DNA of 57,637 nt from Candidatus Thermoplasmatota archaeon (GCA_035540375.1 DATLGO010000075.1:1-57637), one strand, 5' to 3'. Numbered from the stretch's first letter, positions 8,018-52,169 are shown. Notes: a model not told the origin generated them from the letters alone. Translations and numbers: made by a program.

Positions 8018-8679
8018 GCTCGCTTGACCATCAGGAGCCCGAATCCGAACCCCTTGGCAGGGCCGATCCCTTTGCAAAGGGCCTCGGTGAAAGCCTCGGA
8101 ATCTGTGACCTTCAAGCGGCCTTCGTAGTCGATCCCCGTCACGCTCATCTCGCGTCCGTCACGGGGACGGCGGAAACGATGGGGTCGGTAATCATCGACC
8201 CGCACGTTGCCTCGTTCAACGGAGAATCCATGGCGCTCTCCTTGGCGTTCAAGCCACCGGATGCCCTCGTCCTGCACGAGAGCCTGAAGGTCGAATGCCT
8301 CACCTTTGGCCTTCAACTGGTGCTTGGCGGCCATCACGACGTCGTGACGTTTGCCATCCGACCGTTCTCCAGGTGAAGCGACGCGTTTTGTAGGGTTTGC
8401 TCGAAGCGAGAAGCGAAGCACGGCCCCCATCTCCAGCCGGGGAGTGTAGGCGCGCGATTCGACCCTCCAGCCCGGGAGCGCATGGGTCGGTTCGCGGTCA
8501 GAAACGACATGGAACGTGGGTTGACGCTCCGCGTCGTAACGGTAGACGAAACCGCGTTCGCCATCCGGGTCGCCGGCGAAGAATGACCAGATCTGCTGAT
8601 GGTGGCCGTAGGCTGTGGCGTTCGCGATGTTGCTGAGGGCGCTCTCTGGATCGACGAGCGTGATGCGTGTGAACTGCAT
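8014..8679 (-). CDS. cas6e: pre-crRNA endonuclease Cas6e
   Basis: A 221-residue Cas6e (Cse3/CasE) that cuts each repeat at the base of its hairpin and stays bound to the crRNA 3' end. Visible features are Tyr24 and His26/27 (AYGHHQQIWSFF), where the catalytic His is expected, and the C-terminal glycine-rich loop GIGPAKGFGFGLLMVKR. A strong Shine-Dalgarno site (AAGGAGGA) precedes the ATG. The start shares one base with the cas5 stop. Confidence 0.95.
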
Positions 8680-9416: not shown

Positions 9417-9422
9417 GGGCCA

Positions 9423-10457: not shown

Positions 10458-10464
10458 GATCTGG

Positions 10465-11001
10465 TCACTCCTTGCTCTTCGTCAGGATTTCTCGTGGAAG
10501 CTTCGAGTAGTATGAGCGCGCCCAGCGTCGCTGAACGTCCTCCTGTGTGTCCCACCAATAGAGAGACGAGGCGAGGTCGAGGACGTTGATCCTGCCTTGG
10601 AGTTGGCGAACGAGTCTGGTACCGGCGGCGATCCGCTCGGTCGCCCCCTCGACCTGCAGGAAACGTCGGAATCTCAGAGGGCTCATAGCCGGCACCGATC
10701 CCGCTCCAGTCTGGGCGAGTTGCTCTGCAACGCGCGCACCGCCGTCGTGCTCACGAACGTGACTGACGACTGCGGCGGCCACTGCGAGGCTCTCGAGGTG
10801 GGCATTCGGCATCGCCCGGACGAGCGCTTCGAAGGCTGGAACCATCTGGACTTCGAGCGCGGTCGAGCAGCGCCTCAGTTCGGCGAGCGCTCCGGGATCG
10901 CCTGGCCTCTTTCTCTCAGAATCTCCGCGAAGTCCCGCCCACCACTGGTGGACGCGCGTCGCCTCGAAGCTCTTCGATTCGCTGGACGTGGTTTCGGTCA
11001 A
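10465..11001 (-). CDS. cse2: Cascade small subunit Cse2 (Cas11e)
   Basis: This helical small subunit is present as a dimer in Cascade. The predicted start is a TTG at 11001 (LTETTSSESKSF), because TTGA overlaps the cse1 stop by 4 bp. No in-frame ATG lies near the expected start; an upstream ATG at 11184 would overlap cse1 extensively. From this start it has 178 residues, normal for the family. Features include VHQWWAGLRGD near the N terminus and RFRRFLQVEG with WWDTQEDVQRRWARSYY near the end. The rare TTG start may keep its level below that of Cas7. Confidence 0.9.
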   Translation of the reverse strand: MTETTSSESKSFEATRVHQWWAGLRGDSERKRPGDPGALAELRRCSTALEVQMVPAFEALVRAMPNAHLESLAVAAAVVSHVREHDGGARVAEQLAQTGAGSVPAMSPLRFRRFLQVEGATERIAAGTRLVRQLQGRINVLDLASSLYWWDTQEDVQRRWARSYYSKLPREILTKSKE

Positions 11002-12533
11002 GACATTCTCCCCTGAGTATGCTCGGCGCTCAAGTCGAGGACTTTGGGCAGTTCCTTGCTCAACTTGGCTTCGAGTCGGGCCTCTGCTTGGACAACCTGT
11101 TTGGGATCGATGTCCCCGAGGCGCGTGTACTGCACTCTCTCGCGGAAGGCGCGTCGAGTCTCTGCAACCACTCGGTGGAACCACGCCGCGCGTTCAATCA
11201 TCGAAACGTGAGATTGTGAGGCAACTTTTCGGAGGCTCGAGTAAAATGCGCCCTCCGTTCTCGTCCAGAGCGCTTGGCTCAAGAACGAAAGGTCCCCTTT
11301 CACGTCGAGTTGACCGTACCACGCGCCCTTGTAGGCGTCCTTCAATGATCGCGCCGCGACGTCGGTCGCGGCGATGAGATGCTGCGCGTGGTGGTCGACG
11401 CGCGCGCGAGTCCCATCATCACCAGGGATCACGTCGCCAACGGTACCTTCGTACCACCCTTCGACTTTTGCGTTGTCCATGGCATAGCCGGCGGCGCGAA
11501 GGCGCGCGTGGGGCGCCGCGAATCTTCTGGCGGGGGAACTCCGGTAGTGGTGCACGGAGAGCGCCGGCCGCCGGGAGCCGTCGTCGGAATTGCCGACGAG
11601 GCCGATCCAATGTCGATAAGCGCCAAGGTCGGAACGCCCTTTTCTCGCTGAGATCGTCCCTTTCACTTCTTGTGTCGGGGAGAGCGGGTGGATCCACGAT
11701 CCATGGTAATCGAAGCCATAGGGCCTCGAAATGAATTCCGTGAATCCCCAATTTAACTCGCCACACAGCACGCACTGCCTCGCACCTCGAGGGGACCCAA
11801 GCAGGATGCGCCGAGGCATTCCCCAGAAGACATGGCCCGGAGCGACTTCGGTGGACGTGAGTTTGGATCGCTTACCCTTCGATGGATCCGGCGTATTCAT
11901 CCACGGAAAGAGGGCTGGCTCCGGTTTTCCCGGACCTACCGTCCACGCTTCCGCGGGGAGGACGTTGAGCCAAACGGTCTCCCAGAGGTCGTCGCCGAGA
12001 ATCAACGTAGAAATCGGCCCTCCTCCCCGGATCGATGTCATGTTGCCGCGACCGCCTGCAGGAGAGAACGATTGGAGCGTGAAGAGTGCGAGGGCCGTGC
12101 AAGGTCCGCAAATGAAGGCCTCGGGCCGTCTCCGGATAAACAAATCCTTGTTGTCGTCGATGGTCGCATCGCCCGGGGTGTCGATGAGAAGGCCCGAAAT
12201 GGGTTCGGCCGCGCCCTCAAGGCCCGTTTCTTGCAAGAACGGTTGTCGGCTGGACGTCAGCTCGAATGCGTTGCTGAACGGGGCGAATTTGGAGGCTAGT
12301 TCGGCCTCGGAAGGAGGCTTATCGAACATCCCTTCCCATGATATCTCGCTCTTGGGTGCGAGGACGGTCTGATAGAGCCCGATGATGATCTCGTAGAGCG
12401 CCGCGTCGAAATCCGGCCTGGGGCTGGCGGGGCCCTTCGCGGCGCTGCTGATGATTTCCGTGGGTCGAATCCTGCGGTAACCTCCTGGCGTGGCGACCGG
12501 GATCCATGGATCCGAGATCAGGTTCAGCTTCAT
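10998..12533 (-). CDS. cse1: Cascade large subunit Cse1 (Cas8e)
   Basis: A 511-residue Cse1 (CasA), which recognises the PAM and recruits Cas3. The N terminus MKLNLISDPWIPV is diagnostic. Further family features are FELTSSRQPFLQE, a Gly-rich loop region (GGRGNMTSIRGGGPISTLI) and a helical C-terminal domain. A perfect Shine-Dalgarno sequence AAGGAGGA is 4 nt upstream of the ATG. It overlaps the cas3 stop by 4 bp. Confidence 0.96.
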   Translation of the reverse strand: MKLNLISDPWIPVATPGGYRRIRPTEIISSAAKGPASPRPDFDAALYEIIIGLYQTVLAPKSEISWEGMFDKPPSEAELASKFAPFSNAFELTSSRQPFLQETGLEGAAEPISGLLIDTPGDATIDDNKDLFIRRRPEAFICGPCTALALFTLQSFSPAGGRGNMTSIRGGGPISTLILGDDLWETVWLNVLPAEAWTVGPGKPEPALFPWMNTPDPSKGKRSKLTSTEVAPGHVFWGMPRRILLGSPRGARQCVLCGELNWGFTEFISRPYGFDYHGSWIHPLSPTQEVKGTISARKGRSDLGAYRHWIGLVGNSDDGSRRPALSVHHYRSSPARRFAAPHARLRAAGYAMDNAKVEGWYEGTVGDVIPGDDGTRARVDHHAQHLIAATDVAARSLKDAYKGAWYGQLDVKGDLSFLSQALWTRTEGAFYSSLRKVASQSHVSMIERAAWFHRVVAETRRAFRERVQYTRLGDIDPKQVVQAEARLEAKLSKELPKVLDLSAEHTQGRMS

Positions 12534-15208
12534 TTTTCCTCCTTGACTTCGAAGCCTCGAGTCATCGAGTAGGACAATTTCCAGCGGCGGCCTTCTGTGC
12601 TCCTCGCCTGACTCCAGGATTGATTGCCGGTGCGCTCCAGGACGACGACGTTCGCAGGTGTCAACGGATCCGCGCTCGGCGCGTCCTCGATCAACCCTGC
12701 AGCCAAGGCCACTGAACGGGAGATGCGGAGTCGCGATCCATCCCAGCCTTCCTCGTCCAATGGCTTAATCCCGTCAGGGTCCCGAGTCGCGAGGTGGAGG
12801 TCGACGCTCTCGAGACCCGCGCGGGTCTTTGCCCGATCCGGGTCCTCCCACCGGCCGTCGCGAGTCGAGTAGCCCGCGTCGAGTTTGAGGGCCTTGAGGT
12901 GCGCGTGGCTTTGTTGCGCCATGGCTTCGGCTTCAGCACGCTGGGTGATCTCAAGAAGCTCCGGGGGCAGGCGAGAGTAGACCGTTGGCCCATAGACTGC
13001 TTCGATGAGGTTTCTCGCGTCCTCTGGAATCCGGATGCGGCTGAAGGACCTCAATGTGGCGCATGTGAGCCATAGCCGCCCGTGGTCGGGGTACACAGCG
13101 GCTGTTCCTTTTGACCACCCTTGGACCCAATTCGCCGGCGGCTGATCGTCCCACGCGGGTGCATGCACGAGGAGGACCGGGGCCCCGCCGATCGGGCGTT
13201 GGCGGCCGGGGTGACGTTGGAGGCGGCCGGCGCGTTGCAGAAGGAGTTCGATCGGTGCCAGATCTGTGATCACCAGATCGAAATCGAGGTCGAGCGATTG
13301 TTCGACGACCTGGGTCGCGATGAGGACGCGTCCCCGTCTGTCGTGAGCCTGCCCGTTCGGGCCCGCCCAGGCGAGGAGTTCGTTCTCGTGTCGGCGGCGA
13401 TCCGCTTCTGTGAATCGGGCGTGGATCAGTGAGGGGCTGAGGTCAGATAGTTTGTCCCAGGCCTCGACGGCTTCTCGAACGGTGTTCCGGATCCAGCAGA
13501 CCGATTGCCCATTTTGCTGCGCGGCCTGGATGGCCTGAAACACGTCGTCCTGCGCGTGGAGGAACTGCAGGTCGAAAGACCGGGCTGATCCCTCCCGCGG
13601 CGCGATGGCTGTTTCCTTGCAGCTGCCCGAACCGTCGATTTGGGTCAAGAGAGGATAGGCACGGTTCTGGGAATTCGCGTGATCCACTCCGCATTCCTCG
13701 GCGAACGCACGCGAAAATCGGTCGCGGAGATGCAAAGGGAGGGTGGCGGAGAGAAGGATGGTCGACCCTCCCGCCCTCGTGTGGAACCGGAGAAGGGCCT
13801 CAAGGAGGGCTGTGGCGTGAGGGTCATAAGCGTGGACTTCGTCAACGACGAGAACTCGGGAGGCGAGTCCGAAGAGGCGCAACGATTGATGTTTGACGGG
13901 CAGTACGGCCAAGAGGGCTTGATCGATCGTTCCGACACCGACGTGGGCAAGGAATGTCTTCTTTCGGGAGTCCGCAAGCCATCGCGTGCATTCGAGTCTC
14001 CCCGTGTCGCTGCCTGAAGCCCGATCTTGGAGCGATTCGAGGACGTCGTTTCTGAAGTTGCTCATCGCGAGCCGCCCCGAGTGCGATAGGACGAGCGCGG
14101 CCTCGCTTGGCTTCTGGAAAATCTGCGGTGCTGCAATCTTGAGGCGACTGTACATCGCGTTCGCGGTCGCCTGGGTAGGCAAGGCGAAATAGAACCCCGT
14201 AGCCTCTCCGGTCCGCATGATACGGTGCACCGCGAGGAGGCTCGCTTCGGTTTTGCCGGACCCCGTCGTGTCTTCCATGATCACGAGGTGGGGGCCGGTG
14301 CTTGGTTTCCATGCTTCCACGGCCATCTGGAGCGGGGTCGGAGGGAATCGGAACATCTCGCGCGTTGTCGCCGGCGTGGCAATCGGCGTTGAGAGAATGC
14401 CCAAACCACGGATGGCGAGTTCAGCGCGTTGCATCGCCGACGCAAAATAGACTTGGAGAGAGGATGCCTCGCTCGATCGCGGAAACCAGGCCTCGTTCGA
14501 GCCGACCCAGTCGCAGAGGACCGCGAAACCTGCGATGTGCCAGGATCCTGCCCTGATGGCGGCATGAAGATCTTCGGCCGAAACGCCGTCGCGCCAAAGG
14601 GTTTCCAGCGGTGCAAGCTTGCGGAGCGCCTCGACCCAACGGGTGCCGCTTTCGATTCCCTCCTCGTCCCAAATGCCAACCGACGTCTGGAGGGCCTCAG
14701 GCGGTTGCCCGTGGTGGCCGGTGAAGGCGCCTTCGAGCGCCCAAAGGACGTGACGCCATTCGCCCTCGCTCCACGGGTGAACTTCGGCGAGAGATTTCGC
14801 GAGCGATGGAATGATGTGGGATTTGAGGAGGACGCTCCCGAGGGTCGTATGGTGGGGTTGATAGAGCCGGGGGGTCTTGCCTGGCCAGACCCGCTCAAAG
14901 TGCTCGCGGTCGAGCGCTTGGAAGCGATCGCAGAATTTTCCGATATCGTGGACGGCCAGGCCCAAGGTTAAGAGCGTTTCGAGGCCGTCGGGCCTCAGGT
15001 GGAGGCTTTGAGCCCAGCCTTCCCGCAGGGCAGGACTTGCTCGGAGCAGGGTAACTCCGACGGCGCTGACATCGAGAAGGTGCCACGGCAGGGCATGGTA
15101 CTTGCCATTGGATGCCGACTTGCCCCAATGCTTGAGGAGGTGGGATTCATCCCAACCTTGGGAACTCGTATCGGAGCCCCCGGCGTTTCCGCCCACCTCT
15201 GATTCCAT
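12530..15208 (-). CDS. cas3: Cas3 helicase-nuclease (type I-E)
   Basis: The Cascade effector that unwinds and degrades target DNA. An N-terminal HD nuclease shows LPWHLLDVSAVG and LAVHDIGKF. A superfamily 2 helicase follows, with Walker A EDTTGSGKTEAS, DEVH box VLVVDEVHAYD, motif III ILLSATLP and the C-terminal helicase motif QVVEQSLDLDFD. The start at 15208 (MESEVGG) has GGAGG five bases upstream; an earlier in-frame ATG at 15286 would add 26 atypical residues. It is the first gene of the cas operon, downstream of atpA. Length 892 residues fits I-E Cas3. Confidence 0.96.
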   Translation of the reverse strand: MESEVGGNAGGSDTSSQGWDESHLLKHWGKSASNGKYHALPWHLLDVSAVGVTLLRASPALREGWAQSLHLRPDGLETLLTLGLAVHDIGKFCDRFQALDREHFERVWPGKTPRLYQPHHTTLGSVLLKSHIIPSLAKSLAEVHPWSEGEWRHVLWALEGAFTGHHGQPPEALQTSVGIWDEEGIESGTRWVEALRKLAPLETLWRDGVSAEDLHAAIRAGSWHIAGFAVLCDWVGSNEAWFPRSSEASSLQVYFASAMQRAELAIRGLGILSTPIATPATTREMFRFPPTPLQMAVEAWKPSTGPHLVIMEDTTGSGKTEASLLAVHRIMRTGEATGFYFALPTQATANAMYSRLKIAAPQIFQKPSEAALVLSHSGRLAMSNFRNDVLESLQDRASGSDTGRLECTRWLADSRKKTFLAHVGVGTIDQALLAVLPVKHQSLRLFGLASRVLVVDEVHAYDPHATALLEALLRFHTRAGGSTILLSATLPLHLRDRFSRAFAEECGVDHANSQNRAYPLLTQIDGSGSCKETAIAPREGSARSFDLQFLHAQDDVFQAIQAAQQNGQSVCWIRNTVREAVEAWDKLSDLSPSLIHARFTEADRRRHENELLAWAGPNGQAHDRRGRVLIATQVVEQSLDLDFDLVITDLAPIELLLQRAGRLQRHPGRQRPIGGAPVLLVHAPAWDDQPPANWVQGWSKGTAAVYPDHGRLWLTCATLRSFSRIRIPEDARNLIEAVYGPTVYSRLPPELLEITQRAEAEAMAQQSHAHLKALKLDAGYSTRDGRWEDPDRAKTRAGLESVDLHLATRDPDGIKPLDEEGWDGSRLRISRSVALAAGLIEDAPSADPLTPANVVVLERTGNQSWSQARSTEGRRWKLSYSMTRGFEVKEEK

Positions 15209-15451
15209 GCCTCCCTCCGTTAGGACACGCGGTCGAGGGCACAGGTAATTTGCGCCGGATCGTTCGAGGCCGCCTCGTCCGTTCAATGAAAGGATGGGTG
15301 GATGGGCCTTAGAGTCTTCCTGCCCTTCCTAGCCAGGCGACTAGAATATCAAAGCGAAGATGCCGACAAGAACGTCATCGTATCCTGAGCCTTGCGGAGT
15401 GGTAGAAAGGCGGACGCGGCCCCGGGTCGCCCCGGGACCCGATCGAGCGGC
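15209..15451 (-). promoter_or_regulatory. Junction between atpA and cas3 with possible cas promoter
   Basis: This 243-bp segment separates the housekeeping operon from the cas operon. On the minus strand TTTGATATTCTAG (15341-15353) is the best TATA-like element; it would give a leader of about 100 nt before the Cas3 ATG at 15208. The segment is more AT-rich than atpA. No direct repeats, integrase site or tRNA were recognised that would explain an insertion. Confidence 0.35.
15418..15437 (-). terminator. Possible terminator after atpA
   Basis: A GC-rich hairpin, CCCGGG-GCGA-CCCGGG on the minus strand (15421-15436), starts about 15 nt after the atpA stop. It is followed some 10 nt later by a short T-rich stretch (CCTTTCT). 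This could limit read-through from atpA into cas3. The T run is weak. Confidence 0.35.
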
Positions 15452-17221
15452 CTACGCGCTCTTCAGCGCCGCAAACTCCCGCTGCAGCCGGTCGAGAACC
15501 GCCTTGTAGTTCGATTCCCACTCCGCCTCGAACTTCGCCTTCGCGAGGTCGCCGCGGATGTTGACCTTCAGCACGTCCGCAAGCGGCACGCCCGAGGCGA
15601 GCGCGCCGCGCGCGAGCTCCTCGTACTTCTTGAGGGCGACGAGCACGTCGTACTGCTTGCGCAGGGGCGCGTACGCGTCGATCGCGTGGAAGGCGTTCTG
15701 CTGGAGGAAGACCTCGCGGATGCCGCGGGCCACTTCGAGCGTGAGCTGCTGCTCCTCGGGGAGGGCGTCCGAGCCGACGAGCTGCACGATGTCCTGCAGC
15801 TCGGCTTCCGTGCCGAGGACCGTCGCGCCCCACGTGCGGAGCGCGCCCCAGTCCTTCGCGACGTGCGCCTCGTACCAGGGCACGAGGTCGCTCTCGTAGA
15901 GGGAGTAGGAGTCGAGCCAGTTGATGGCGGGGAAGTGGCGGCGCTGGGCGAGCTTCGCGTCGAGGGCCCAGAAGACCTTCACGATGCGGAGCGTGTTCTG
16001 CGTGACGGGCTCCGAGAAGTCGCCGCCGGGCGGCGACACGGCGCCGATGACGGTGACCGAGCCGGTCTTGCCCGAGAGCGTGTTGACGCGGCCGGCGCGC
16101 TCGTAGAACTCGGCGAGGCGCGCGGCGAGGTAGGCGGGGTAGCCTTCTTCGCCGGGCATCTCCTCGAGACGGGAGGAGATCTCACGCATGGCCTCGGCCC
16201 ACCGGGAGGTGGAGTCGGCCATGAGGGACACGTCGTAGCCCATGTCGCGGTAGTATTCCGCGATCGTGATGCCCGTGTACACGGAGGCTTCGCGGGCGGC
16301 GACGGGCATGTTGCTCGTGTTCGCGATGAGCACCGTGCGGTTCATGAGCGGCTTCTTCGTGTTCGGGTCCTCGAGGTGCGGGAACTCCGTGAGAACCTCG
16401 GTCATCTCGTTGCCGCGCTCGCCGCAGCCGATGTAGACGACGATCTGAGCGTCCGAGAACTTGGCGAGGGACTGCTGCGTGACGGTCTTGCCCGACCCGA
16501 AGGGGCCGGGGATGGCCGCCGTGCCGCCCTTCGCGACGGGGAAGAGACCGTCGAGGATGCGCATGCCGGTGATGAGGGGGATGTCGGGGCGGAGCTTGTT
16601 CGTGACCGGGCGCGGGACGCGGACGGGCCACTTGTGCATGAGGCGCAGCTCCGTGCCGTCCGCGAGCTTGCCGACGACCTCGTCGATCGTGAACGAGCCC
16701 TTGTTGAGGGACTGGATCGTGGTCTCCTTGACGCCCGGGGGGACCATGATCGTGTGGACGATCGTCTCGGTCTCCTGGACCGTGCCGAGGATCGAGCCGC
16801 CCTTGACCTTGTCGCCCGCCTTCGCGGTGGGGACGAAGTCCCACTTCTTCTTGTGGTCGAGGCCGGGCGCGTTGACGCCGCGGAGGATGAAGTCGCCCAT
16901 CTGGTCCTGGAGGACCTCGAGGGGGCGCTGGATGCCGTCGTAGATGGACGTGAGGAGGCCGGGGCCGAGCTCGACCGAGAGCGAGGCGCCGGTTTCGCGC
17001 ACGGGCTCGCCGGGCTTGATGCCCGAGGTGTCCTCGTAGACCTGGATGACCGTCTTGTCGCCCGCGATCTCGATGACCTCGCCCATGAGGCCTTCGTTGC
17101 CGACGAAGACGACCTCGTACATGCGGGCGTTGATGCCCTGCGCGGTCACGACGGGGCCCGCGACGCGGAAGATCGAGCCCTTCGCGCCGGTCTTCTTCTG
17201 AGTTACCGCCTCTTGAGCCAT
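15452..17221 (-). CDS. atpA: A-type ATP synthase subunit A (catalytic)
   Basis: The catalytic subunit of the A1 head, 589 residues. It has an N-terminal barrel ([15 protein letters not shown]), the bulge domain specific to A/V-type A subunits (about residues 110-200), and the Walker A loop GPFGSGKT at 239-246. [16 protein letters not shown] and [17 protein letters not shown] are further hallmarks. The ATG at 17221 is preferred because GAGGTG lies just upstream; the upstream GTG at 17230 is part of that ribosome site. The next gene on this strand is cas3 rather than atpB. Confidence 0.98.
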
Positions 17222-17240
17222 GGGATGCACCTCTTGAATG

Positions 17241-22668: not shown

Positions 22669-25600
22669 ATGAGCGGATCAGAGCGATCTCTACGAGCGGC
22701 GATCTCGCTCCTCGTGATCGTGGGGCTCGTCGCCACCGCGAAGCCGGTCGCCGCCGCCGAGACCGACCCCCCGTTCACGACCGCGACGCCTTCGGGCACG
22801 CTCGGGTCGAACGGTTGGTACCGGGCGAGCCCGGTGACCGTCGCGTTCGCCGCCATCGACAACGGGAGCGGGGTCGACACGACGTATCGCCGCATCGGCG
22901 CGAATCCCTTCGTCGCGGGCAACGCCATCTCCGTCACGACCGACGGCACGAACGTCGTCCAATACTACTCCACGGACCGCGACGGGAACGTCGAAACGAC
23001 CCGCAGCCTGACGGTCCGGCTCGACACGCGCGACCCCCGCGCCATCATCACGAACCCGCCGGGAGCCGTCATCGACCCCGCGTCTCCGACCGTGCGCCGC
23101 TACAGCGCGGGCGTCAGCATCGCGGTGAGCTACCAGGACTTCCCCGGCGGATCGGGGATCTCCAACCGCTCGTACTTCCTCACGAAGGACGGCGTCGTCG
23201 GAGCCTGGACCGCGTACACCGACCCCGTCGCGGTCTCGGGCGAGGGCACGTACACCTTCACCGCGGTCGCCATCGACGTCGCCGGTCGCGAAGGGCGCGC
23301 GTCGCTCCAGTTCGCGATCGACACGACGCCCCCCGCGCTCTCGCTCGCGGCGATTCCCGCCGTCGCCGCGGGCGCGATGCCGCTGCGCCTCGCGGCCTCC
23401 GAGACGCTCGCCGCCTCGCCCGCGCCCTCCGCCGACCTCGACGGGCCCGGGTGCGCGCCGTGCACCGTGACCTTCGAACGCGCGACCAAGTTCACGTGGG
23501 TCGCCGTGTTCGAGGCCCCCGCCGCCGGGACCTACGCCGTCGACGTCGAGGCCAAGGACATCACGGGCAATGCGGGAACCCTCTCGACGACCCTCGTCGC
23601 CGCGCCGACGGGTCCCGCCGACACCGGTCTGACGCCCGCGCCCGGGAGCATCCTCGCCGCCCGTCCCGCGAGCGTGACCGCGACCTTCGCCACGCCCGTG
23701 GTCGCGCGCGCGGTCCTCCTCGACGGCGGCTTCGGCCTCCTCACGACCGCGCCCGCGGCCACGACCGCGACCGCCACGCTCGGCCACCAGGGCCCGGGCC
23801 CGCACGTCGCGGGTCTCTCCGTGGTCGACGGCGCCCACGCGCGCACCGTGGCGACGAACTACCTCGTCGCTCCGCAGGCGCCGATGCTCTCGGGCCTCGG
23901 CGTGCCCGACGCCGTCCCCGCGAACGCCCGCGTTCGGGCCTACGTGAACGCGAGCGCGGAGGGCGCGGGACTCGCGTCCGTCACCATCGCGGGAGCGCCC
24001 GCGCGGTGGCTCAGGGACACGCTCTGGGTCGCCGACGTCGGCCCCGTCGCGGAGGGCGCGACGATCGAGTTCGACGTCCAGGCCACGACCCTCGCGGGCG
24101 TCACGGCGATCCTCGACGGACCCGTCCGGACCGCGGGGGCGCCCGGCGCGGGCGTCGCGCCCGGCGTGGAACCCGGCGCGCTCGCGTGGGACGGGCGTCA
24201 TCTCCGCGCCAACGGGGCCTCCGGGCCCACGGGCGCCGGCGCGCTCGACGGACGGGCGCTCGTCGCCCCCGAGGGAGGCGCCGCGGCCTGGGTCACCGGC
24301 GTCGCGACGGCGAACGGCGGCCGCACCGACGTTGTCTTCGATCTCGACGCCTTCGGACCGGGCCTGTTGCGCGTCCGCGCGCTCTGGATCAACGATACGG
24401 CCGCCGATCTCGCCGCGGGCTTCGCGCCCTTCACCGTCCTCCGCGCGGCGACGACCGCCCCGACGCTCGTCGATCTCACCCTTCCGGCCTCCGCGACGCA
24501 GGGCCTCGTGCGCGTCACCGCCAACGTCTCCGGGGCCGACCGCGCGCGGCTCGTCTGGAACCTGACGGATCCGCTCGCGGGCGCGCCCGCCGACGCCCGT
24601 TTCGCCGAGCCCTCGACCGTGTCGAGCGCGGGCGGGATCCTCTCCGTCACCTTCGACCTCCAGCTCACGCCGGGCCTGCTGTGGGCGCGTCTCGAGGCGC
24701 ACGACGCCCGCAACGGCCGGCTTCTCACGCCCGCGAAGGCGCTCCACGTCACCGACTCGCAGGCGCCCGCGCTCTTCGCGCCGCAGCCGGCGAGCGGCCG
24801 CATCGTCGACGTGAAGCGCCCCGTCATCGGCCTCTCCTGGGCGGACCCCTCGGGCGTCGATGTCGCCTCGGTGGTCGTGCAGGTGAACGGCCAGACCGTT
24901 CCCGCCACCTCGCTCACGCTGACCGGCGGCGGCTTCACGCACGTCCCGGCCGCGGACCTCGACGGCTCGGTCACGGTTTCCGTCGACGTCAAGGACGCCT
25001 TCGGCCGGCTCGCCCACTTCGACTGGACCTTCACGGTCGGGAACGCCCCCGGCTCGACGACGAACCTCGGGCTCCCGGCCCCCTGCGCCGCGCAGGACCA
25101 GGTGGGGACGGGCTCCGAGGTGTCCTGCCCGGGCGCCGCGGGATCCGACGCGACGAACACGACCGGCGGGGCCTTCGAGACCGAGCCTCCCGCGATCCTC
25201 GCGCACGGTCCCGTCGGGGTCGTGCGCGACGCCGCCCCGTCGCTCACGCTCCGGTACCGCGACGCGGCGAGCGCGATTCCCGCCACCGGCGTGCTCGTGG
25301 ACCTCGACGGACGCCGCATCGCCGTTTCCGCCACGAACGAATCCGCGACCGCGACCCTCGCGGGCCTCGCCCCCGGCCCCCACCGGCTCGAAGCGACGGT
25401 GGACGACGCGCGCGGCAACCGCGCGCGGCTCGCATGGACCTTCTGGTACGCCCCTCCCGGAGCCGCTTTCGACGCGGCGGGCGGCGCGCTCACGGTGCCC
25501 GGCGTCGGCGTCCTCGACCCGCGCGGCGCGGGCAACGCCACGGTCGTCGTCGAGACGCGCGACGGGGCGCTTCATCTTGCGGGCTTCGCCGACGGGGGCC

Positions 25601-26358
25601 TCGCGTCCGTGCGCGTCGTCTCCGCCGAGCCCTTCCTCCTCGGGCCTAAGCCGCTCGTCGCGGGCGCGGATCTCGCGCTTCCCGCCATCGTGCGCGGGAA
25701 CGCCGCGGCCCCGACGCTCGCCTTCGAGACACCCTCGCCGATCGCGGGATCGCTTCGCGCGCGGGTCACCGGGCATGGTCTCGCGCCCCTCGAGGTGCGC
25801 GTCGCGCTCGTCGGGGCGCCGTCCAACTGGCCGACCGGGCCCGGGATCGCGGTCGTCGGGGTAGACGGGGGCGCGACAGTCTACGACGTGGACCTCAAGG
25901 GCCTCCCGGAGGGAGCGTGGATCGCGCTTGCGACCGTCCACGACGCGTGGGGACGCGCCGCCCGAGCGAACGCGACGTTCGCGTGGGACGAGACGCGCCC
26001 CGTCGCCTCGTTCTCGTACAAGCCGGGCGCGACCGCATTCGACGTCCTCGCGCGCGACGCGGGCGGCATCCGGTCCGTCCGGCTCCTTCTCAATGGCGTG
26101 GAGCGGGTGAACGCGACGTTCGACGCGCGGGAGAACGGATCGCGGGTCGTCACGGTCCCGCTCGAAGGCCCGCTTCCCCCGGGCAACCACTCGGTCGTCG
26201 TCGAGACGACGGACTTCGCGGGCAATCTCGCGAGGACCGAAGGCTGGATCGATCTTCCCGCGTCCGTCGACGTCCCGACCCAGCGCATCCCGGCGCCGTC
26301 CCTTCTCGCGATCGTCTCGCTTCTCGGCGTCGCCGCGCTCCTCGCCCGCCGCCGCTGA
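22669..26358 (+). CDS. Large Ig-like surface protein with C-terminal anchor
   Basis: A 1229-residue exported protein. It has a signal peptide (SLLVIVGLVATAKPVAAA) and then many beta-rich Ig-like modules; repeated local patterns include DTRDP/DTTPP followed by strands, and YQDFPGGSGISNRSYF like bacterial Ig-like domains. It ends with a linker (VDVPTQRIPAP), a hydrophobic helix (SLLAIVSLLGVAALLA) and an Arg cluster, like the PGF-CTERM type of sorted anchor, though no PGF triplet is present. A structural or adhesive cell-surface role is inferred. No catalytic motif was seen. Confidence 0.75.
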   Translation: MSGSERSLRAAISLLVIVGLVATAKPVAAAETDPPFTTATPSGTLGSNGWYRASPVTVAFAAIDNGSGVDTTYRRIGANPFVAGNAISVTTDGTNVVQYYSTDRDGNVETTRSLTVRLDTRDPRAIITNPPGAVIDPASPTVRRYSAGVSIAVSYQDFPGGSGISNRSYFLTKDGVVGAWTAYTDPVAVSGEGTYTFTAVAIDVAGREGRASLQFAIDTTPPALSLAAIPAVAAGAMPLRLAASETLAASPAPSADLDGPGCAPCTVTFERATKFTWVAVFEAPAAGTYAVDVEAKDITGNAGTLSTTLVAAPTGPADTGLTPAPGSILAARPASVTATFATPVVARAVLLDGGFGLLTTAPAATTATATLGHQGPGPHVAGLSVVDGAHARTVATNYLVAPQAPMLSGLGVPDAVPANARVRAYVNASAEGAGLASVTIAGAPARWLRDTLWVADVGPVAEGATIEFDVQATTLAGVTAILDGPVRTAGAPGAGVAPGVEPGALAWDGRHLRANGASGPTGAGALDGRALVAPEGGAAAWVTGVATANGGRTDVVFDLDAFGPGLLRVRALWINDTAADLAAGFAPFTVLRAATTAPTLVDLTLPASATQGLVRVTANVSGADRARLVWNLTDPLAGAPADARFAEPSTVSSAGGILSVTFDLQLTPGLLWARLEAHDARNGRLLTPAKALHVTDSQAPALFAPQPASGRIVDVKRPVIGLSWADPSGVDVASVVVQVNGQTVPATSLTLTGGGFTHVPAADLDGSVTVSVDVKDAFGRLAHFDWTFTVGNAPGSTTNLGLPAPCAAQDQVGTGSEVSCPGAAGSDATNTTGGAFETEPPAILAHGPVGVVRDAAPSLTLRYRDAASAIPATGVLVDLDGRRIAVSATNESATATLAGLAPGPHRLEATVDDARGNRARLAWTFWYAPPGAAFDAAGGALTVPGVGVLDPRGAGNATVVVETRDGALHLAGFADGGLASVRVVSAEPFLLGPKPLVAGADLALPAIVRGNAAAPTLAFETPSPIAGSLRARVTGHGLAPLEVRVALVGAPSNWPTGPGIAVVGVDGGATVYDVDLKGLPEGAWIALATVHDAWGRAARANATFAWDETRPVASFSYKPGATAFDVLARDAGGIRSVRLLLNGVERVNATFDARENGSRVVTVPLEGPLPPGNHSVVVETTDFAGNLARTEGWIDLPASVDVPTQRIPAPSLLAIVSLLGVAALLARRR

Positions 26359-45070: not shown

Positions 45071-45079
45071 AACGCTTAT
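45071..45079 (+). promoter_or_regulatory. TATA-like box that sets the start of the first paralogue
   Basis: AACGCTTAT ends 26 nt before an in-frame GTG at 45105. The earlier ATG at 45078 lies inside the box and would not be in the transcript. Confidence 0.5.
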
Positions 45080-45104
45080 GGCGGCGCGCGTCGGGTTTCG
45101 TCCC

Positions 45105-45971
45105 GTGCAGCGCCTCCTCGCGTGCCTCCTCGCGCTCCTTGCGCTCCTCCCCGCCGCCACGGCGCAATCCAATCCCCACGAGATGCGGATCACGCTCGAC
45201 ACCTTCCGCGGCCAGGTGACGCCGGGCGAGCGCGCCGTGACGAACGCGACGATCGAGATCACCTGCTCGGCCGCCGCGATGGTCTCGTCCGGGCAGGCGC
45301 GGCTTCAGGTCGCGTTCTTCGCGGGGCCCCCCTGGGCGACGCCCGCCGCGCCGACGAGCGTCCGCGTCGATCCGAACGCGTGCGACGGAAAATTCGTCCG
45401 CGTGCGCGCGCCCCTCGGGCTCGACGTCGCCCGGGAGGCCCCCGCGTTCGTCGCCGAGACGGTCAAGGCGCGCGCGACGCTCACGACGCCCACCGCGAGC
45501 GCGAAGGCCGAGGCCGAAACGGTGGCGGCGCCCCATTGGCGAGGCGACTTCGACGCCGTCGTCGACGGTCCGATCGAGGTCGCGCCGGGCGGTCAGTCCA
45601 TCCTCGTCGTGCGCGTGACGAACCGCGCGAACGCCGTCACGGAATACACGCTCGAGCCTGAGCACGTGCCCGAGGGGTGGTCCGTCGTGCCGCCCGCGCC
45701 GCGCGACATCCCGGCCGCCGCGCTCGGGGGCTCGGGCATCACCGACGAGCTCCGCGTGACGATCGGAAGCCCCGGGTCGGGCGGCGCGCTGAAGGGCGAC
45801 CTCCGTTTCGTGATCCGGGCGGTCCCGTCCGTCGATCCCACGGCGGGCGAGGTCTCGAAACCGCTTGTCGTCGAGGTGAAGACGACGTCGAAGGCCGTGC
45901 CGACCATGGCGCTCGCCGGACCCGCCGCGGCGGCGCTTGCGGCCGCGCTCGCGGCGCGCAGACGGGCGTGA
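45105..45971 (+). CDS. Exported surface protein, paralogue 1 of 4
   Basis: About 288 residues. The GTG start at 45105 gives a canonical signal peptide (VQRLLACLLALLALLPAATAQ); an ATG at 45078 would add nine residues but overlaps the promoter. Two beta-sandwich regions follow: one has two Cys (ITCSAAAM and PNACDG), probably a disulfide, and the second resembles the NEW3/CARDB type (ILVVRVTNRANAVTEYTL, VPEGWSV). A hydrophobic helix and RRR end anchor it. Function is unknown. Confidence 0.75.
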   Translation: MQRLLACLLALLALLPAATAQSNPHEMRITLDTFRGQVTPGERAVTNATIEITCSAAAMVSSGQARLQVAFFAGPPWATPAAPTSVRVDPNACDGKFVRVRAPLGLDVAREAPAFVAETVKARATLTTPTASAKAEAETVAAPHWRGDFDAVVDGPIEVAPGGQSILVVRVTNRANAVTEYTLEPEHVPEGWSVVPPAPRDIPAAALGGSGITDELRVTIGSPGSGGALKGDLRFVIRAVPSVDPTAGEVSKPLVVEVKTTSKAVPTMALAGPAAAALAAALAARRRA

Positions 45972-46037
45972 CGCGGGCGCCGCCCCGGGAGAAGCATGCA
46001 GAGAAACTTGAAGCGGTCCGATCGCGATCGGCCCGTC

Positions 46038-46967
46038 ATGCGACGGGCGCTACCGGTCGTGATCGTCCTGCTCATCGTCGCGCCCGCGGTCGAGGCGCAG
46101 GCCGACGACCTTCTGCCGTTCGAGCTCGCGGTCGCGCCGTTCGACGGCCCGATCCCGCCGCTTGCGCCCATGACGCGCACCGCCGTTCTCGTCACCGTTT
46201 CGTGCGCGCGGCTTGTGGGGCATTCCGTCGCGTATCCGATGGACCTGACCTTCAGCATCGAGAGCGCCCCCGCCTGGGCGCTCGCTTCCGTGAATCCGAC
46301 GCGCGTGCCCGTTGGCCTCGACGCCTGCGACGCCGCGACGCGCACGGCGCGTTTCACCGCCTCGATGGGCGTCGTCACGCTTCCGGAGGCGCCCGCGTTC
46401 GAGGCCGGCGACATCACCCTCCGCGCCACGCTCCGGGGCGTCGCGGAGACCACGACCCGCGAGGCGATCGTGTCGTTGTCGGCCGACTGGGCGCCGCTCC
46501 TCTCCGTCGTCGTGGACGCCCCCGCCCGGGCCGTGGTGGGCGGCGAGACGGCGGAGTTCGTCTTCACCGCGACCAACCGCGGCAACGCGCCCGTCGTGGT
46601 CGCCTCGAGCGTCGAGAACGCGACCCGTAGCTGGAACGCGACCGGCCTCGGAACGGCCGCGATCGAGCCGGGCGCAAGCGCGCGCTTCCACCTGCGCGTC
46701 GACACGCCGTCGGACGTGCCCACGGACGCGGCCTCCTACACGGTCGCGTTCGCGTGGCATCTCGAAGCCGATCCCCGGCGCGCGAACGAGCCCGTCCTGG
46801 CGACCGTCCTGGTTTCGGTCCGGTCCGGATCCGTCGCCGGCCTCGGCGAGGCGCTCGAGGACACCGGGACGCTTCCTCTCGTCGCCCTCCTTCTTCCGGC
46901 CCCGGCGCCGCTCGCGCTCGCCCTTGCCCTCGCCTCGGCGGCCGCGGCCTTCCGACGGCGTCCATGA
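46038..46967 (+). CDS. Exported surface protein, paralogue 2 of 4
   Basis: About 309 residues with signal peptide (MRRALPVVIVLLIVAPAVEAQ). The same plan as its neighbours: LPFELAVAPFDGPIPP, a Cys pair (VTVSCARL, LDACDAA), a second beta domain (AEFVFTATNRGNAPVVV), then a hydrophobic C-terminal helix ending FRRRP. An ATG at 45996 would add 14 charged residues ahead of the signal peptide and is less likely. Confidence 0.75.
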   Translation: MRRALPVVIVLLIVAPAVEAQADDLLPFELAVAPFDGPIPPLAPMTRTAVLVTVSCARLVGHSVAYPMDLTFSIESAPAWALASVNPTRVPVGLDACDAATRTARFTASMGVVTLPEAPAFEAGDITLRATLRGVAETTTREAIVSLSADWAPLLSVVVDAPARAVVGGETAEFVFTATNRGNAPVVVASSVENATRSWNATGLGTAAIEPGASARFHLRVDTPSDVPTDAASYTVAFAWHLEADPRRANEPVLATVLVSVRSGSVAGLGEALEDTGTLPLVALLLPAPAPLALALALASAAAAFRRRP

Positions 46968-47040
46968 CGACCTCGGCGGCATTGTCGCCGCCGTCGACGG
47001 GCGCAGACATCGTTAAAGGGTCCACGTCCGCTGGCGCCGT

Positions 47041-47925
47041 ATGCGCTTCGCCCTCCTCGCGCTCGCGCTCCTTGCGCCCGCCGCAGGCGCCGCGGCCGGC
47101 CCCCTCGCGGTGGACGTCGTCGTCGCGCCGTTCGAGGGTCCCGTCCCGGTCATCACCGCGATCGCGCAGACGGACGTCAGCGCCACGGTCTCGTGCGCCC
47201 TCCTCGCGAACGCGGCCCCCGGAGGACCCGCGACGCTTGAGTTCGCCGTGCGCGAAAGCCCGGCTTGGACGTCGACGTCGATCTCGCCCGCGCGCGTCCA
47301 GCTCCCCGCGCCGGGCGCGTGCGACGCGAACACGCAGTCCGCCGTCGCGCGGACGAAGCTCTTCGTCGGGGTCGACGGGAGGGCTCCCGCCTTCGCCCCC
47401 GCGCTGATCGTGGTCGGAGCCGTGCTGCAGGGTCCGGCCGGAAAGCAGGAGGGCGAAGGCAACACGACGGTCGAAGCGGATTGGTTGAGCATCCTCGATG
47501 TCGACCTCGGGCCGGGGATCGCGAAAGTCGCCCCCGGGAAGACGGCCTCGTTCAAGATCCTCGCGACGAACCGCGGCAACGCGCCCGTCGACGTCCTCGT
47601 CGGCATCGACGCGGTCGACCGCGGCTGGAACGTCACGGTCGACTCCCCCCGCGGCGTCGCCCCGGGCGAGTCTCGCGAGGTCCTCGTCGAGGCCACCCCG
47701 CCCGCCACGGCCTCCGGAACGACGATCCTCCAGCTGCAGGCCGTCGCGCGCCTTGCCTCGGACCCGACCCGGTTCGGCGACTCGACCCGCCTCGCGCTCA
47801 TCGTGGATGTCGCGGGCGAAAGCGCGGTCGACCAGGTCGCCCGAGGCATCCCGGCTTTCCCGGGGGCCTTCGCCGCCCTCGCCCTCGTCGCCGGGGCCGT
47901 CCTCGCGCGCCGCGTCGTCAAGTGA
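47041..47925 (+). CDS. Exported surface protein, paralogue 3 of 4
   Basis: A 294-residue protein with signal peptide (MRFALLALALLAPAAGAAAG). It shares VVVAPFEGPVPV, the Cys pair (ATVSCALL, PGACDAN), ASFKILATNRGNAPVDVLV in the second domain, and a closing membrane helix with RRVVK. A TTAAA element lies 24 nt before the ATG. Its stop overlaps the start of the fourth paralogue. Confidence 0.78.
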   Translation: MRFALLALALLAPAAGAAAGPLAVDVVVAPFEGPVPVITAIAQTDVSATVSCALLANAAPGGPATLEFAVRESPAWTSTSISPARVQLPAPGACDANTQSAVARTKLFVGVDGRAPAFAPALIVVGAVLQGPAGKQEGEGNTTVEADWLSILDVDLGPGIAKVAPGKTASFKILATNRGNAPVDVLVGIDAVDRGWNVTVDSPRGVAPGESREVLVEATPPATASGTTILQLQAVARLASDPTRFGDSTRLALIVDVAGESAVDQVARGIPAFPGAFAALALVAGAVLARRVVK

Positions 47926-48872
47926 AAGCTCATCCGTGGGGAGGGCGCTCGCCCCGCGTGCGCGCCCTCGTCGTCGCCCTCGCCCTCCTCGCCCTCGCGG
48001 CCCCGGCCGCGGCGCAGAACGACCCCCTCGCGATCACGCTCACCATGACCCCGTTCGAGGGCCCCGTCGCCCCCGGGTTCGGGTTCGGATTCGCGTCGCT
48101 CAACGCGACGATGCCGTGCGCGCTCGCGCTCAACGCCGCGCCGCAGCAGGCCGCGACGCTCCGCTTCGTGGTCGAGGCGAGCCCGAACTGGAGCGAGCCC
48201 GTCGTCTTCCCGGCGCAGGTCAATCTCACGACCGAGATGTGCAAGGGAACCTCCATCCATGCGCTCGCGCAGGTGTTCGTGGGCGTCACGGACGACGCGC
48301 CCGCGGGCGCCGCGGAGCCCTTCCGCGTGAACGCGAGCATCACGGGCCCCCTCGGGACGAAATACGGCACCGCGTCGCAGGACCTCGTGGCCGGCTACCG
48401 CGGCGCGATCGACGTCGCCGCGAACGCGACGAGCGCGAAGATCCTCCCCGGCCAGACGGCGACGTTCCGCGTCACCGTCGAGAACAAGGGGAACGACAAG
48501 GTCCGCGTCGCGCCCGCCTGGGCCGCGGACCCCCCGGCCGGCTGGAGGCTCGCGGCGATCGACCCCGCGCTCGTGGGCTCGGCGCAGAAGGGCGACAACG
48601 CCACCTCCACCACGTTCCTCGTCGCCATCACCGCGCCCGCGGTGGAGGGCGCCGTGAAGGACACGAAGACCTTCAGCCTCCGCGTCTCCGCGACGCGCGA
48701 CGGCGACGCTTCCGACCCGCCGACGACGCGCACCCTCGGCTTCACCGTCACCTCCGAACGCGTCGTGGAGACGCCGACCCCGAAGCCGTTCGGGGTGCCC
48801 GGCCCCGCGGGCGCGCTCGTCGCCCTCGCGCTCGCCGGCGCCGCCGTCCTCGTCCGCGCCCGCCGCGGTTGA
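47922..48872 (+). CDS. Exported surface protein, paralogue 4 of 4
   Basis: A 316-residue protein if it starts at the GTG that overlaps the previous stop (GTGA). A second GTG at 47958 gives a shorter n-region before the same signal sequence (RALVVALALLALAAPAAAQ). It has LTMTPFEGPVAPG, Cys pair (ATMPCALA, TEMCKGT), ATFRVTVENKGNDKVRV, and the anchor PGPAGALVALALAGAAVLVRARRG. It is probably cotranslated with paralogue 3. Confidence 0.75.
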   Translation: MKAHPWGGRSPRVRALVVALALLALAAPAAAQNDPLAITLTMTPFEGPVAPGFGFGFASLNATMPCALALNAAPQQAATLRFVVEASPNWSEPVVFPAQVNLTTEMCKGTSIHALAQVFVGVTDDAPAGAAEPFRVNASITGPLGTKYGTASQDLVAGYRGAIDVAANATSAKILPGQTATFRVTVENKGNDKVRVAPAWAADPPAGWRLAAIDPALVGSAQKGDNATSTTFLVAITAPAVEGAVKDTKTFSLRVSATRDGDASDPPTTRTLGFTVTSERVVETPTPKPFGVPGPAGALVALALAGAAVLVRARRG

Positions 48873-48917
48873 CGGTTGCGGAAGCTATTTCCGGGGTCCC
48901 CTGGCTCCGGGAAGCGC

Positions 48918-50267
48918 ATGGGTCGGGACCTCCGGGCCTACATCCCTCAGGTCAAGCTCCCGCAGATCGCGAAGCTCGAGCCCCTCGCGAAGATTCCCAC
49001 CATCACGAAGGGCCGCTATTGGCGGCTCCTCTCGGCGATCTACATCGCGATCTTCCTCGTGCGGCTCGCCTTCAGCATCGTCACCATCACGTTCCGGCAC
49101 TACGTTGACGTGTCGGACACGGTCTACGCGATCCTGGTGGCGGGAAGCCCGCTCGCCGAGTTCGCGACCGTGCTCTTCCTCGGCCCGTTCATCGACCGGC
49201 ACGGGCGCAAGCCCGCGCTCATCGGCGGCCTCGCCATGGGCGCCGTCTCGCTCTTTGCGCTCGCGCTCACGAAGGACATCTGGCTCCTCTTCCTCGCGAA
49301 CATGCTCCACGGCGTCGCGGCCGCGGCGATCCTCGTGACGAGCCTCGCGACCATCGCGAGCTATGCGCCGCCCGAGTCGCGCGGCCGCGAATACGGCGTG
49401 TATGACTTCGTGAACCTGCTCGGCTACCTCGGCGGCTTCACGCTCGGCTTCATCCTGCTCGACGCGTTCCCCGGCCGCGTCGAGAACAGCTTCATCATCG
49501 CGGGCATGCTCGCCGTGCTCGGCCTCGCCTATGCGCATTGGAACGTGCGCGAGGACAGCTTCGGGGCGAAGAGCGATCCCAAGCAGCCGGTGACGCCGCG
49601 CAAGCTCTGGACGGTCGTCTCGAATCCCTACGTCTCCGTCCTCGCCGCGCTCTGGTTCGTGGTCTTCATGGTGATGGGGTCGCTCGTCACCTTCTTTCCG
49701 AAGGTCTACAACACGGTCTCCGACTCGGGTGGCGCCATCTCGGTCTCGATCCTCGGCGCGGCCGTCGCGTTCTTCGTGAGCCAGTTCTTCTTCGGCAAGC
49801 TCTCCGACAAGCACGGGCGAGAGCCCATCATGCTCCTCGGCGTGGGCGCCTACGGCGCGATCGCCCTCATCGTCGGCGCGGCGTTCCTCGCCGATCCCGC
49901 GGCCACGCCGCTTGCGCTCTACGGCACTCTCATCGTGTATTGGCCCGTCCTCGCGCTCCTCGGCCTCGTGGCCCTTGCCTTCGCGCCCGCGGCCCTCGCG
50001 GCGCTCGCGGACGCCGCGGAAGAAGGCGCGAAGGGCACGACGATGAGCATCTACCCGCTCGTCATCTCGCTCGGGTACATCGTCGGCCCGCCCCTTTTCG
50101 GCCTCGCCTCCGACGCGGGCGGGACGGGCGGCATCGTGGCGTTCATCCTCGTCATCGCCGGCCTTCTCGGCGCGCTCACCATCGTCCGGATGCGGCTCGT
50201 CGCGGCGGGCCTCGCGCGCATCGCCCGCGCCCCCGCGCAGGCGCCGGTCCTGGAACAGAAGCCGTGA
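48918..50267 (+). CDS. MFS transporter
   Basis: A 449-residue major facilitator protein with about 12 transmembrane helices. The loop motifs are GPFIDRHGRKPALIGG (between helices 2 and 3) and GKLSDKHGREPIM (the matching site in the second half). The substrate is unknown. The ATG at 48918 is 28 nt after GCTATTT; an in-frame upstream start at 48876 would place that box in the coding region. The N-terminal 45 residues are a cytosolic extension. Confidence 0.87.
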   Translation: MGRDLRAYIPQVKLPQIAKLEPLAKIPTITKGRYWRLLSAIYIAIFLVRLAFSIVTITFRHYVDVSDTVYAILVAGSPLAEFATVLFLGPFIDRHGRKPALIGGLAMGAVSLFALALTKDIWLLFLANMLHGVAAAAILVTSLATIASYAPPESRGREYGVYDFVNLLGYLGGFTLGFILLDAFPGRVENSFIIAGMLAVLGLAYAHWNVREDSFGAKSDPKQPVTPRKLWTVVSNPYVSVLAALWFVVFMVMGSLVTFFPKVYNTVSDSGGAISVSILGAAVAFFVSQFFFGKLSDKHGREPIMLLGVGAYGAIALIVGAAFLADPAATPLALYGTLIVYWPVLALLGLVALAFAPAALAALADAAEEGAKGTTMSIYPLVISLGYIVGPPLFGLASDAGGTGGIVAFILVIAGLLGALTIVRMRLVAAGLARIARAPAQAPVLEQKP

Positions 50268-50307: not shown

Positions 50308-51318
50308 GTGCCGGACGACGTCGTGATCGAGACGCGGGGCCTCACGCGCCGGTTCCGCGTCAAGGGGAGCGAGAAGGACCTGACCGCGGTGGACGCGATC
50401 GACCTCTCGATCCGTCGAGGCGAGATCTTCGGCCTTCTCGGTCCGAACGGCGCCGGGAAGACGACGACGATCAACATGCTCGTCACCATCCTCAAGCCGA
50501 CGGAGGGCGTCGGGCTCGTCGCGGGCCGCGACGTCGCGCGCGAACCCACGCTCGTGCGCAAGACCGTCGGCATCGTCTTCCAGGAGCCGTCCATCGACAC
50601 GATCCTCACCGCGCGCGAGAACCTCGAGCTCCACGCCCGCCTGTACGGCGTGCCGAAGGCCGAGCGCGCCAAGCGCATCCGGGAGATGCTCGCGCTCGTC
50701 GGGCTCACGGAGCGCGCCGATACGCTCGTGAAGCAGTTCTCGGGCGGCATGAAGCGCCGCCTCGAGATCGCGCGCGGACTCCTCCACCGGCCGGCCGTGC
50801 TCTTCCTCGACGAGCCCACCCTCGGCCTCGATCCGCAGACGCGCGAGCACATCTGGGCCTACGTCCGGAGGCTGCGCGACGAGTACGGCACCACGATCGT
50901 GCTCACGACCCATTACATGGGCGAAGCCGACGCGCTCTGCGATCGCATCGGCATCATCGACCACGGCCGGATCATCGCGCTCGGGACACCGCGCGAGCTC
51001 AAGGCGACCCTGCGGGGCGACCTCGTGCGTTTGCGTTTCGCGGCGCCCCCGGACGCGGGGCGCTTCAAGGGCCTCGCCGCCGTCGAGAAGGTCGAGGTGA
51101 GGGGGAACGAGGCCGCGCTCACGGTGCGCGACGCCGCCGCGAACCTGCCCCGCGTCCTCGCCGCCGCGGGCGAGGTCGAAAGCGTCGAGGTGCATCGCCC
51201 GACCCTCGAGGACGTGTTCATCGCGCTCACGGGGCGCGAGATCCGCGACGACACGACGGAAGGCGAGGCGTTCTCGGACGCCATCATGCGCTCCGCGACG
51301 GGAGGGAGCAACCGATGA
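50308..51318 (+). CDS. ABC transporter ATP-binding protein (DrrA-like)
   Basis: A 336-residue ATPase. Walker A is GPNGAGKTTT, the signature is FSGGMKRRLEIARG, Walker B with the catalytic Glu is VLFLDEPTLGLD, and the H-loop is LTTHYMGEAD. The C-terminal 90 residues form the accessory domain found in DrrA/NatA-type exporters. Start is a GTG. It overlaps the permease gene by 4 bp. The substrate could be a drug, lipid or surface polymer. Confidence 0.93.
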   Translation: MPDDVVIETRGLTRRFRVKGSEKDLTAVDAIDLSIRRGEIFGLLGPNGAGKTTTINMLVTILKPTEGVGLVAGRDVAREPTLVRKTVGIVFQEPSIDTILTARENLELHARLYGVPKAERAKRIREMLALVGLTERADTLVKQFSGGMKRRLEIARGLLHRPAVLFLDEPTLGLDPQTREHIWAYVRRLRDEYGTTIVLTTHYMGEADALCDRIGIIDHGRIIALGTPRELKATLRGDLVRLRFAAPPDAGRFKGLAAVEKVEVRGNEAALTVRDAAANLPRVLAAAGEVESVEVHRPTLEDVFIALTGREIRDDTTEGEAFSDAIMRSATGGSNR

Positions 51319-52169
51319 GCGGGCCCGTCGCCCGCGAGCGGGACGCGTCGCGGTCGGGCCCCGCGCTCGGGTGGTCGCACGAGATGCGCGCGATCGGCGC
51401 CATCTGGCTCAGGGAGTTCAAGGTCTTCACGCGCGAGCGCAGCCGCGTCATCTCCTCGATGTTCCAGCCGATCCTCTGGATCGCGTTCGTCGGCACGGGT
51501 CTCCAGGCCGCCGTGGACGCGGATCGTCTCGGCGGAACGGACTACCAGTCGTTCATCTTCCCGGGGGTCCTCGTGATGAGCACACTCTTCGGGACCATCT
51601 TCTACGGCCTCTACATCATCTGGGACCGCAAGCTCGACGTCCTCAAGGAGGTCCTCGTCGCGCCCGTGAGCCGGGCGAGCATCTTCTTCGGCAAGGTCGT
51701 GGGCGGAAGCACGGAAGCCGTCATCCAGGCGGTGTTCGTGCTCGTGGCCGGCTACGCGCTCGCGACCCTTGCGCCCTTCGCGTTCGCGGAGGGCATGGCC
51801 TCGACGCCCGTCTGGATCCTCCTTCCGGCGCTCGCGGTCGTGCTGCTCCTCGCGATCGGGTTCGTGAGCGTCGGTCTCTTCATCGGGAGCTTCTTCGAGA
51901 GCCTCGAAGGCTTCCAGGTGATCGCGAGCTTCCTCACGTTCCCGCTCTTCTTCCTCTCGGGCGCCCTCTACCCGCTCGACTCGCCCGGGTTCCCGACGTG
52001 GCTCGGCGTCGTCGCGCGACTCAACCCCGTGACCTACGCCGTGGACGCCCTGCGCGGGCTCCTCATCGGCCAGCACGCCTTCCCGTACTGGCTCGACTTC
52101 GCGGTCCTCGTCGGCTTCGCCGCCGTCATGATCGCGGCCGGGACGTGGGCGTTCAACCGGATGCGGTGA
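51315..52169 (+). CDS. ABC-2 type permease
   Basis: A 284-residue membrane protein of the ABC-2 family with six predicted helices. The family features are the cytosolic IWLREFKVFTRERSRVISSMFQPI at the N terminus and FFLSGALYPLDSPGFPTWLGVVARLNPVTYAVDALRG before the last helix. It is the partner of the preceding ATPase. The gene ends inside the 3' end of the convergent Rieske gene (17 bp overlap). Confidence 0.92.
   Translation: MSGPVARERDASRSGPALGWSHEMRAIGAIWLREFKVFTRERSRVISSMFQPILWIAFVGTGLQAAVDADRLGGTDYQSFIFPGVLVMSTLFGTIFYGLYIIWDRKLDVLKEVLVAPVSRASIFFGKVVGGSTEAVIQAVFVLVAGYALATLAPFAFAEGMASTPVWILLPALAVVLLLAIGFVSVGLFIGSFFESLEGFQVIASFLTFPLFFLSGALYPLDSPGFPTWLGVVARLNPVTYAVDALRGLLIGQHAFPYWLDFAVLVGFAAVMIAAGTWAFNRMR

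Follow-up and report, generated by a model that had tools for sequence, protein, structure and literature searches.

Four tandem exported proteins of a Thermoplasmatota archaeon are distant, cysteine-bearing relatives of the choice-of-anchor T family

Four neighbouring genes on the + strand (45078-48872, from ORF reading) of a 57,637-nt stretch of Candidatus Thermoplasmatota archaeon DNA, hereafter the window, code for related exported proteins. By their sequences, the four fall outside the curated cut-off of NF041740 (choice-of-anchor T) but are distant relatives of that family by descent, and the array is most likely a diverged, Cys-bearing subgroup of the choice-of-anchor T-type family of Thermoplasmatota. 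Taken as a whole, our preferred reading, to which we assign a probability of roughly 0.6, is that these are exported, membrane-anchored envelope proteins with two Ig-like domains and a structural or adhesive role, perhaps processed by an archaeosortase.

Copy 1 (45078..45971, 297 aa; alternative start GTG 45105) is the most diverged of the four, with Cys63/Cys102 and the C-terminal helix AVPTMALAGPAAAALAAALAARRRA. For copy 2 (46038..46967; Cys56/Cys97), the N-termini of homologs led us to choose ATG 46038, giving 309 aa; a longer start at 45996 gives 323 aa. Copy 3 (47041..47925, 294 aa) has Cys52/Cys94 and the tail GIPAFPGAFAALALVAGAVLARRVVK, and is preceded by the AT-rich GTTAAAGGG, 21-29 nt upstream; such boxes are only suggestive, and we do not claim them as per-gene promoters. 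Copy 4 (47958..48872, 304 aa from GTG 47958) has Cys54/Cys95, six N-glycosylation sequons and the tail GVPGPAGALVALALAGAAVLVRARRG. The original prediction had the last two genes overlapping, and starting copy 4 at GTG 47922 does produce a 4-nt overlap with copy 3 (TGA 47923-47925). We read the start as GTG 47958 because homologs begin with MR(x)L directly before the hydrophobic stretch, a pattern that this codon fits better than 47922. It leaves a 32-nt gap after copy 3, and the overlap is probably an artefact of start choice.

The four proteins share one layout: a signal-like hydrophobic stretch, about 120 residues containing a Cys pair (domain 1), about 115 NEW3-like residues (domain 2), and a hydrophobic helix followed by Arg. 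The signal peptide, domain 1 Cys pair, second domain and Arg-ended membrane helix, all foreseen in the original prediction, are present in every copy. In copy 3, domain 1 (47098..47472, + strand, residues about 20-144) is a predicted Ig-like beta-sandwich carrying the Cys pair, and its homolog in choice-of-anchor T is the N-terminal domain; domain 2 spans 47473..47814 (residues about 145-258) and the C-terminal anchor 47815..47922 (residues about 259-294). In copy 4, alignment segmentation places domain 1 at 48021..48386 (residues about 22-143), domain 2 at 48387..48755 (residues about 144-266) and the anchor at 48756..48869, all on the + strand. Domain 2 had been described as NEW3/CARDB-like, of which the NEW3 half stood. 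Most of the PF10633 profile (NPCBM_assoc, NEW3) is matched by domain 2 of copies 3 (23.0 bits, 9.5e-5) and 4 (22.7 bits), just under the gathering cut-off of 24.4, and the window domains, unlike those of PF10633, are not joined to a glycosidase. A Pfam search gave no PF10633 match in copies 1 and 2, and no CARDB match at E up to 1 in any of the four.

That the copies are tandem paralogs on the + strand was borne out in both domains. With copy 3 as query, a whole-genome search returned copy 2 (E 3e-30), copy 4 (1e-27) and copy 1 (4e-13). Local alignment of domain 1 alone gave z = 9.2-25.2 over all six pairs, a level reached by 0 of 500 shuffles, and domain 2 alone gave z = 5.1-18.9. Dissimilar N-terminal domains had been named in advance as the outcome that would speak against relatedness; all six domain 1 pairs are significantly similar. 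The low identity between copies (about 30%) might be taken to mean that unrelated exported proteins had converged on a generic Ig fold, but the pairwise scores are significant in both domains, and the copies have in common their Cys pair, their collinear plan and a supported clade. The shuffle and tree results refute convergence, to which we attach next to no probability.

Structure prediction, which had been proposed as a check, indicated an Ig-like beta-sandwich for domain 1. The AlphaFold2 models of copy 1 (pLDDT 80.7, from an alignment of the four copies only) and copy 3 (pLDDT 84.7, with the body mostly >90, from an alignment of seven sequences) both consist of two consecutive all-beta domains followed by a C-terminal helix, so that both domains are predicted Ig-like beta-sandwiches. 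Against the PDB, Foldseek returned hundreds of matches for copy 3, the best of them mostly Ig-fold proteins. Between them, the matches of copies 1 and 3 included RbmA, transglutaminase C-terminal barrels, axonemal central-apparatus proteins and the CfaB pilin, with further matches to integrin legs and the S-layer protein SbsC. TM-scores of 0.2 to 0.4 make these matches unspecific, indicating an Ig-like fold and no more; a search of a viral structure library gave an equally unspecific picture, and the family profile found only chance-level matches among PDB sequences. RbmA of Vibrio cholerae, a tandem FnIII biofilm scaffold that ranked first among the PDB matches of the copy 1 model, likewise has two consecutive Ig-like domains, but with a TM-score of 0.25-0.33, no sequence relationship and a different mode of anchoring, the resemblance is one of fold only.

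Domain 1 had originally been left without a family. NF041740 is the only family that matched all four copies (E 2.9e-5, 9.5e-3, 6.8e-4 and 7.6e-4; 23.4, 15.1, 18.9 and 18.7 bits, against a cut-off of 70), with matches spanning both domains. In hhalign, the array aligned with classic choice-of-anchor T collinearly from signal peptide to anchor (P 98.9, E 1.3e-17, 259 columns). For domain 1 in particular, the profile search that had been suggested found NF041740-type relatives: profile-profile comparison linked array domain 1 with its order-level counterpart (P 98.9) and the order-level with the classic domain 1 (P 94.7), whereas the direct comparison of array and classic domains was weak (P 44.5) and needed the order-level bridge. 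Reversed and column-shuffled controls stayed below 1% for the end-to-end comparison and below 2% across the domain comparisons as well. A conserved branch from the same order and beyond (contig C9 of this genome, G003, G012 and others) reaches NF041740 with E-values down to 6.7e-13 and, by sequence, is the bridge between array and family. The AxFxGPxxP strand motif noted in the original prediction is the local form of a family-wide one, reading ITPVDAPIKPL in the C9 protein and ITPxxxPIKPL in the conserved branch. The array and NF041740 have the same elements in the same order (signal peptide, domain 1, NEW3-like domain 2, VPGF-type C-terminal anchor), and both are multicopy and tandem in Thermoplasmatota. 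The window copies differ in their scores, in the specific Cys pair of domain 1 and in their degenerate anchor motifs. In the wider family, domains 1 and 2 are related to each other (P 82 and 89), and the layout therefore amounts to two Ig-like modules in tandem; for the array itself, profile comparison found no significant similarity between the two domains. Shorter members that have domain 1 and an anchor but lack domain 2 occur at L114 (G000:C37) and L121 (G003:C12); therefore, domain 1 is able to stand alone. Choice-of-anchor T is a known archaeal surface-protein family that is functionally uncharacterised; judged by titles and abstracts, the literature on choice-of-anchor proteins, NEW3 in archaea and Thermoplasmatota PGF-CTERM held no paper recognisably on it.

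The Cys pair, the only cysteines in the mature parts of the four copies, is found in 10 of 33 homologs: the four array copies, one protein on contig C98 of the same genome, three from G001, and one each from G004 and G005. Its members lie 36-42 residues apart: the first closes a strand (VSC, VTMC), and the second falls in a loop ahead of a later strand. The remaining 23 homologs have no Cys at the first site, and throughout the 33 the pair is present as both or neither. This perfect co-occurrence supports a disulfide. On the tree of the 33 homologs, which is only partly resolved, the trait needs at least five changes. In G005:C25, G006:C81 and G006:C312, a different pair (alignment columns 58 and 107) connects the strand region at the N-terminus with the strand that follows, which suggests that disulfides arose in domain 1 on more than one occasion.

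All four copies end in a hydrophobic C-terminal helix with Arg, and the helix appears in both models. In copies 3 and 4 the tail comprises a short Pro/Gly motif (P-G-P at the start of the copy 4 anchor), the hydrophobic helix and the Arg end, a layout like that of PGF-CTERM/archaeosortase anchoring (TIGR04126, TIGR04178/PF09721); the anchor motifs of copies 1 and 2 are weak. Two proteins of the exosortase/archaeosortase family are encoded in the genome, one on C17 (above the TIGR02602 and TIGR04178 cut-offs) and one on C27 (above the TIGR04178 cut-off). In contrast to the known systems, however, none of the four tails was matched by the PGF-CTERM model, and the enzyme genes lie elsewhere in the genome. 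Archaeosortase processing of the four copies is possible. Under our preferred reading, the signal peptide would export each copy, and two consecutive Ig-like beta-sandwiches, the Cys-pair domain 1 and then the NEW3-like domain 2, would stand outside the cell. The C-terminal helix with its basic end would hold the protein at the cell surface, perhaps to be cleaved by an archaeosortase and replaced by a lipid, and the ectodomains most likely serve the cell envelope as short units of structure or adhesion.

We also considered the age of the array, which had been described as an expanding surface-protein family, possibly exchanging sequence under virus or host pressure. Expansion did occur: this genome has nine full-length family members, compared with three to four in six order- or class-level relatives, among them two genomes of only about 75% completeness. 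By sequence it is old, with third codon positions saturated between copies (45-52% identity, in DNA of about 73% GC) and tree end branches of 1.0 to 1.8 changes per site, so that the past expansion stands but a present one is not supported. The tree, built from 33 full-length homologs, groups the four copies with a sister-genus singleton, G001:C15, in a supported clade (95/97); a clade restricted to the four copies is not rejected (AU p 0.41). One alternative is that the array encodes surface antigens or virus receptors which actively diversify by swapping sequence between copies. This would be consistent with four tandem genes and with a copy number above that of relatives, and the contig also carries a type I-E CRISPR-Cas system, which speaks for virus pressure in general. 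However, the suggested recombination check found no conversion tracts among the four copies, identity is 20-37% per domain, and no identical stretch of DNA exceeds 22 nt, the longest one covering the conserved TNRGNAPV motif. The saturated third positions, the long branches and the inclusion of the singleton in the clade point the same way, copies in the tandem arrays of other genomes have diverged as well, and no family homolog was found in viral contigs, phages or plasmids. Judged by their sequences, the array copies bear no trace of either recent duplication or gene conversion. We regard active diversification as very improbable and, on the evidence of these copies and of relatives from the sister genus outward, no longer uphold the idea that exchange continues under pressure from viruses.

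The suggested count of copies in relatives showed the family to be multicopy across Thermoplasmatota and often tandem. Among the matches listed, 11 of 28 genomes have tandem arrays, 14 in all, which take in at least 34 NF041740 matches, where the count takes matches over the NF041740 cut-off among the best listed and one listed place is itself under it. In the arrays sampled from other genomes, identity between copies is mostly 23-50% and reaches 68% in one pair. A single-protein scan of a collection of genome contigs with copy 3 gave no match, and an alignment of the conserved branch used as query on them gave three loci. Judged by eye from sequence starts, members of the conserved VPGF (C9) branch (L111 on G000:C9, L117, L118, L124, L125 and L127) lie in a conserved cluster, an operon in which the family protein is followed by a membrane protein and then by two lipoproteins; in the C108 branch, the gene downstream of the family member is DNA topoisomerase VI B-like. 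The membrane protein of the C9-branch cluster is roughly 430-530 aa long, with a NEW3-like ectodomain and a long charged coil tail; this coil protein had no Pfam match.

Around the array itself lie a divergent amidohydrolase gene, an MFS transporter gene (48876-50264) and an ABC transporter pair (50308-52166). The array is on the same strand as the transporters and nearly abuts the MFS gene, as would be expected of ligand-binding or accessory subunits of either transporter. However, MFS orthologs in G001:C50, G002:C8 and G003:C10 are on contigs without a family member, therefore no functional link is indicated, and family members elsewhere have other neighbours; we consider a transporter role quite unlikely. 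In G001, the amidohydrolase ortholog shares its contig with two family members, but at a distance of 12-17 kb, a synteny that is weak at most. Elsewhere in the window, 22669-26355 encodes another large surface protein; it is exported, 1229 aa long and has an Ig-like match to Big_13. The type I-E CRISPR-Cas genes (4639-6600 and 8017-15286; Pfam: Cas3, Cse1, Cse2, Cas7/CT1975, Cas5, Cas6-type) are accompanied by a CRISPR array in which about 34 repeats recur every 61 nt. The system occupies a lower-GC island (0.62 vs 0.70) flanked by genes that, read by eye, resemble A-type ATPase subunits (about 655-2058 and 15455-17230), which gives it the look of an insertion into an ATPase operon.

Finally, membrane proteins with two winged-HTH domains (HTH_HVO_0163_N and HTH_24/MarR types) were observed at L145 (G021:C23), L150 (G029:C68), L153 (G010:C14), G037:C334 and G042:C498, and may be membrane-bound regulators sharing the fold of the surface proteins. 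They adjoin choice-of-anchor T genes in G010, G021, G037 and G042 and themselves bear such an ectodomain in G021 and G029, which raises the idea that the array proteins are surface ligands or sensors signalling with such regulators. This linkage occurs in distant phylum members only and no winged-HTH gene was seen near the window array, so we think a signalling role unlikely. Our most speculative proposal, a long shot, is a surface system of Thermoplasmatota whose choice-of-anchor T-type ectodomains recognise each other: anchored display proteins from tandem arrays would be accompanied by membrane-bound winged-HTH regulators that have the same ectodomain and read the state of the surface layer; if so, the window array would be the Cys-locked branch of the display set.

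Orphan-looking proteins of a poorly studied archaeal phylum now have a family assignment. Domains 1 and 2 are revealed as related Ig-like modules, a Cys-bearing subgroup is defined, and tandem arrays emerge as a recurrent habit of the choice-of-anchor T-type family.
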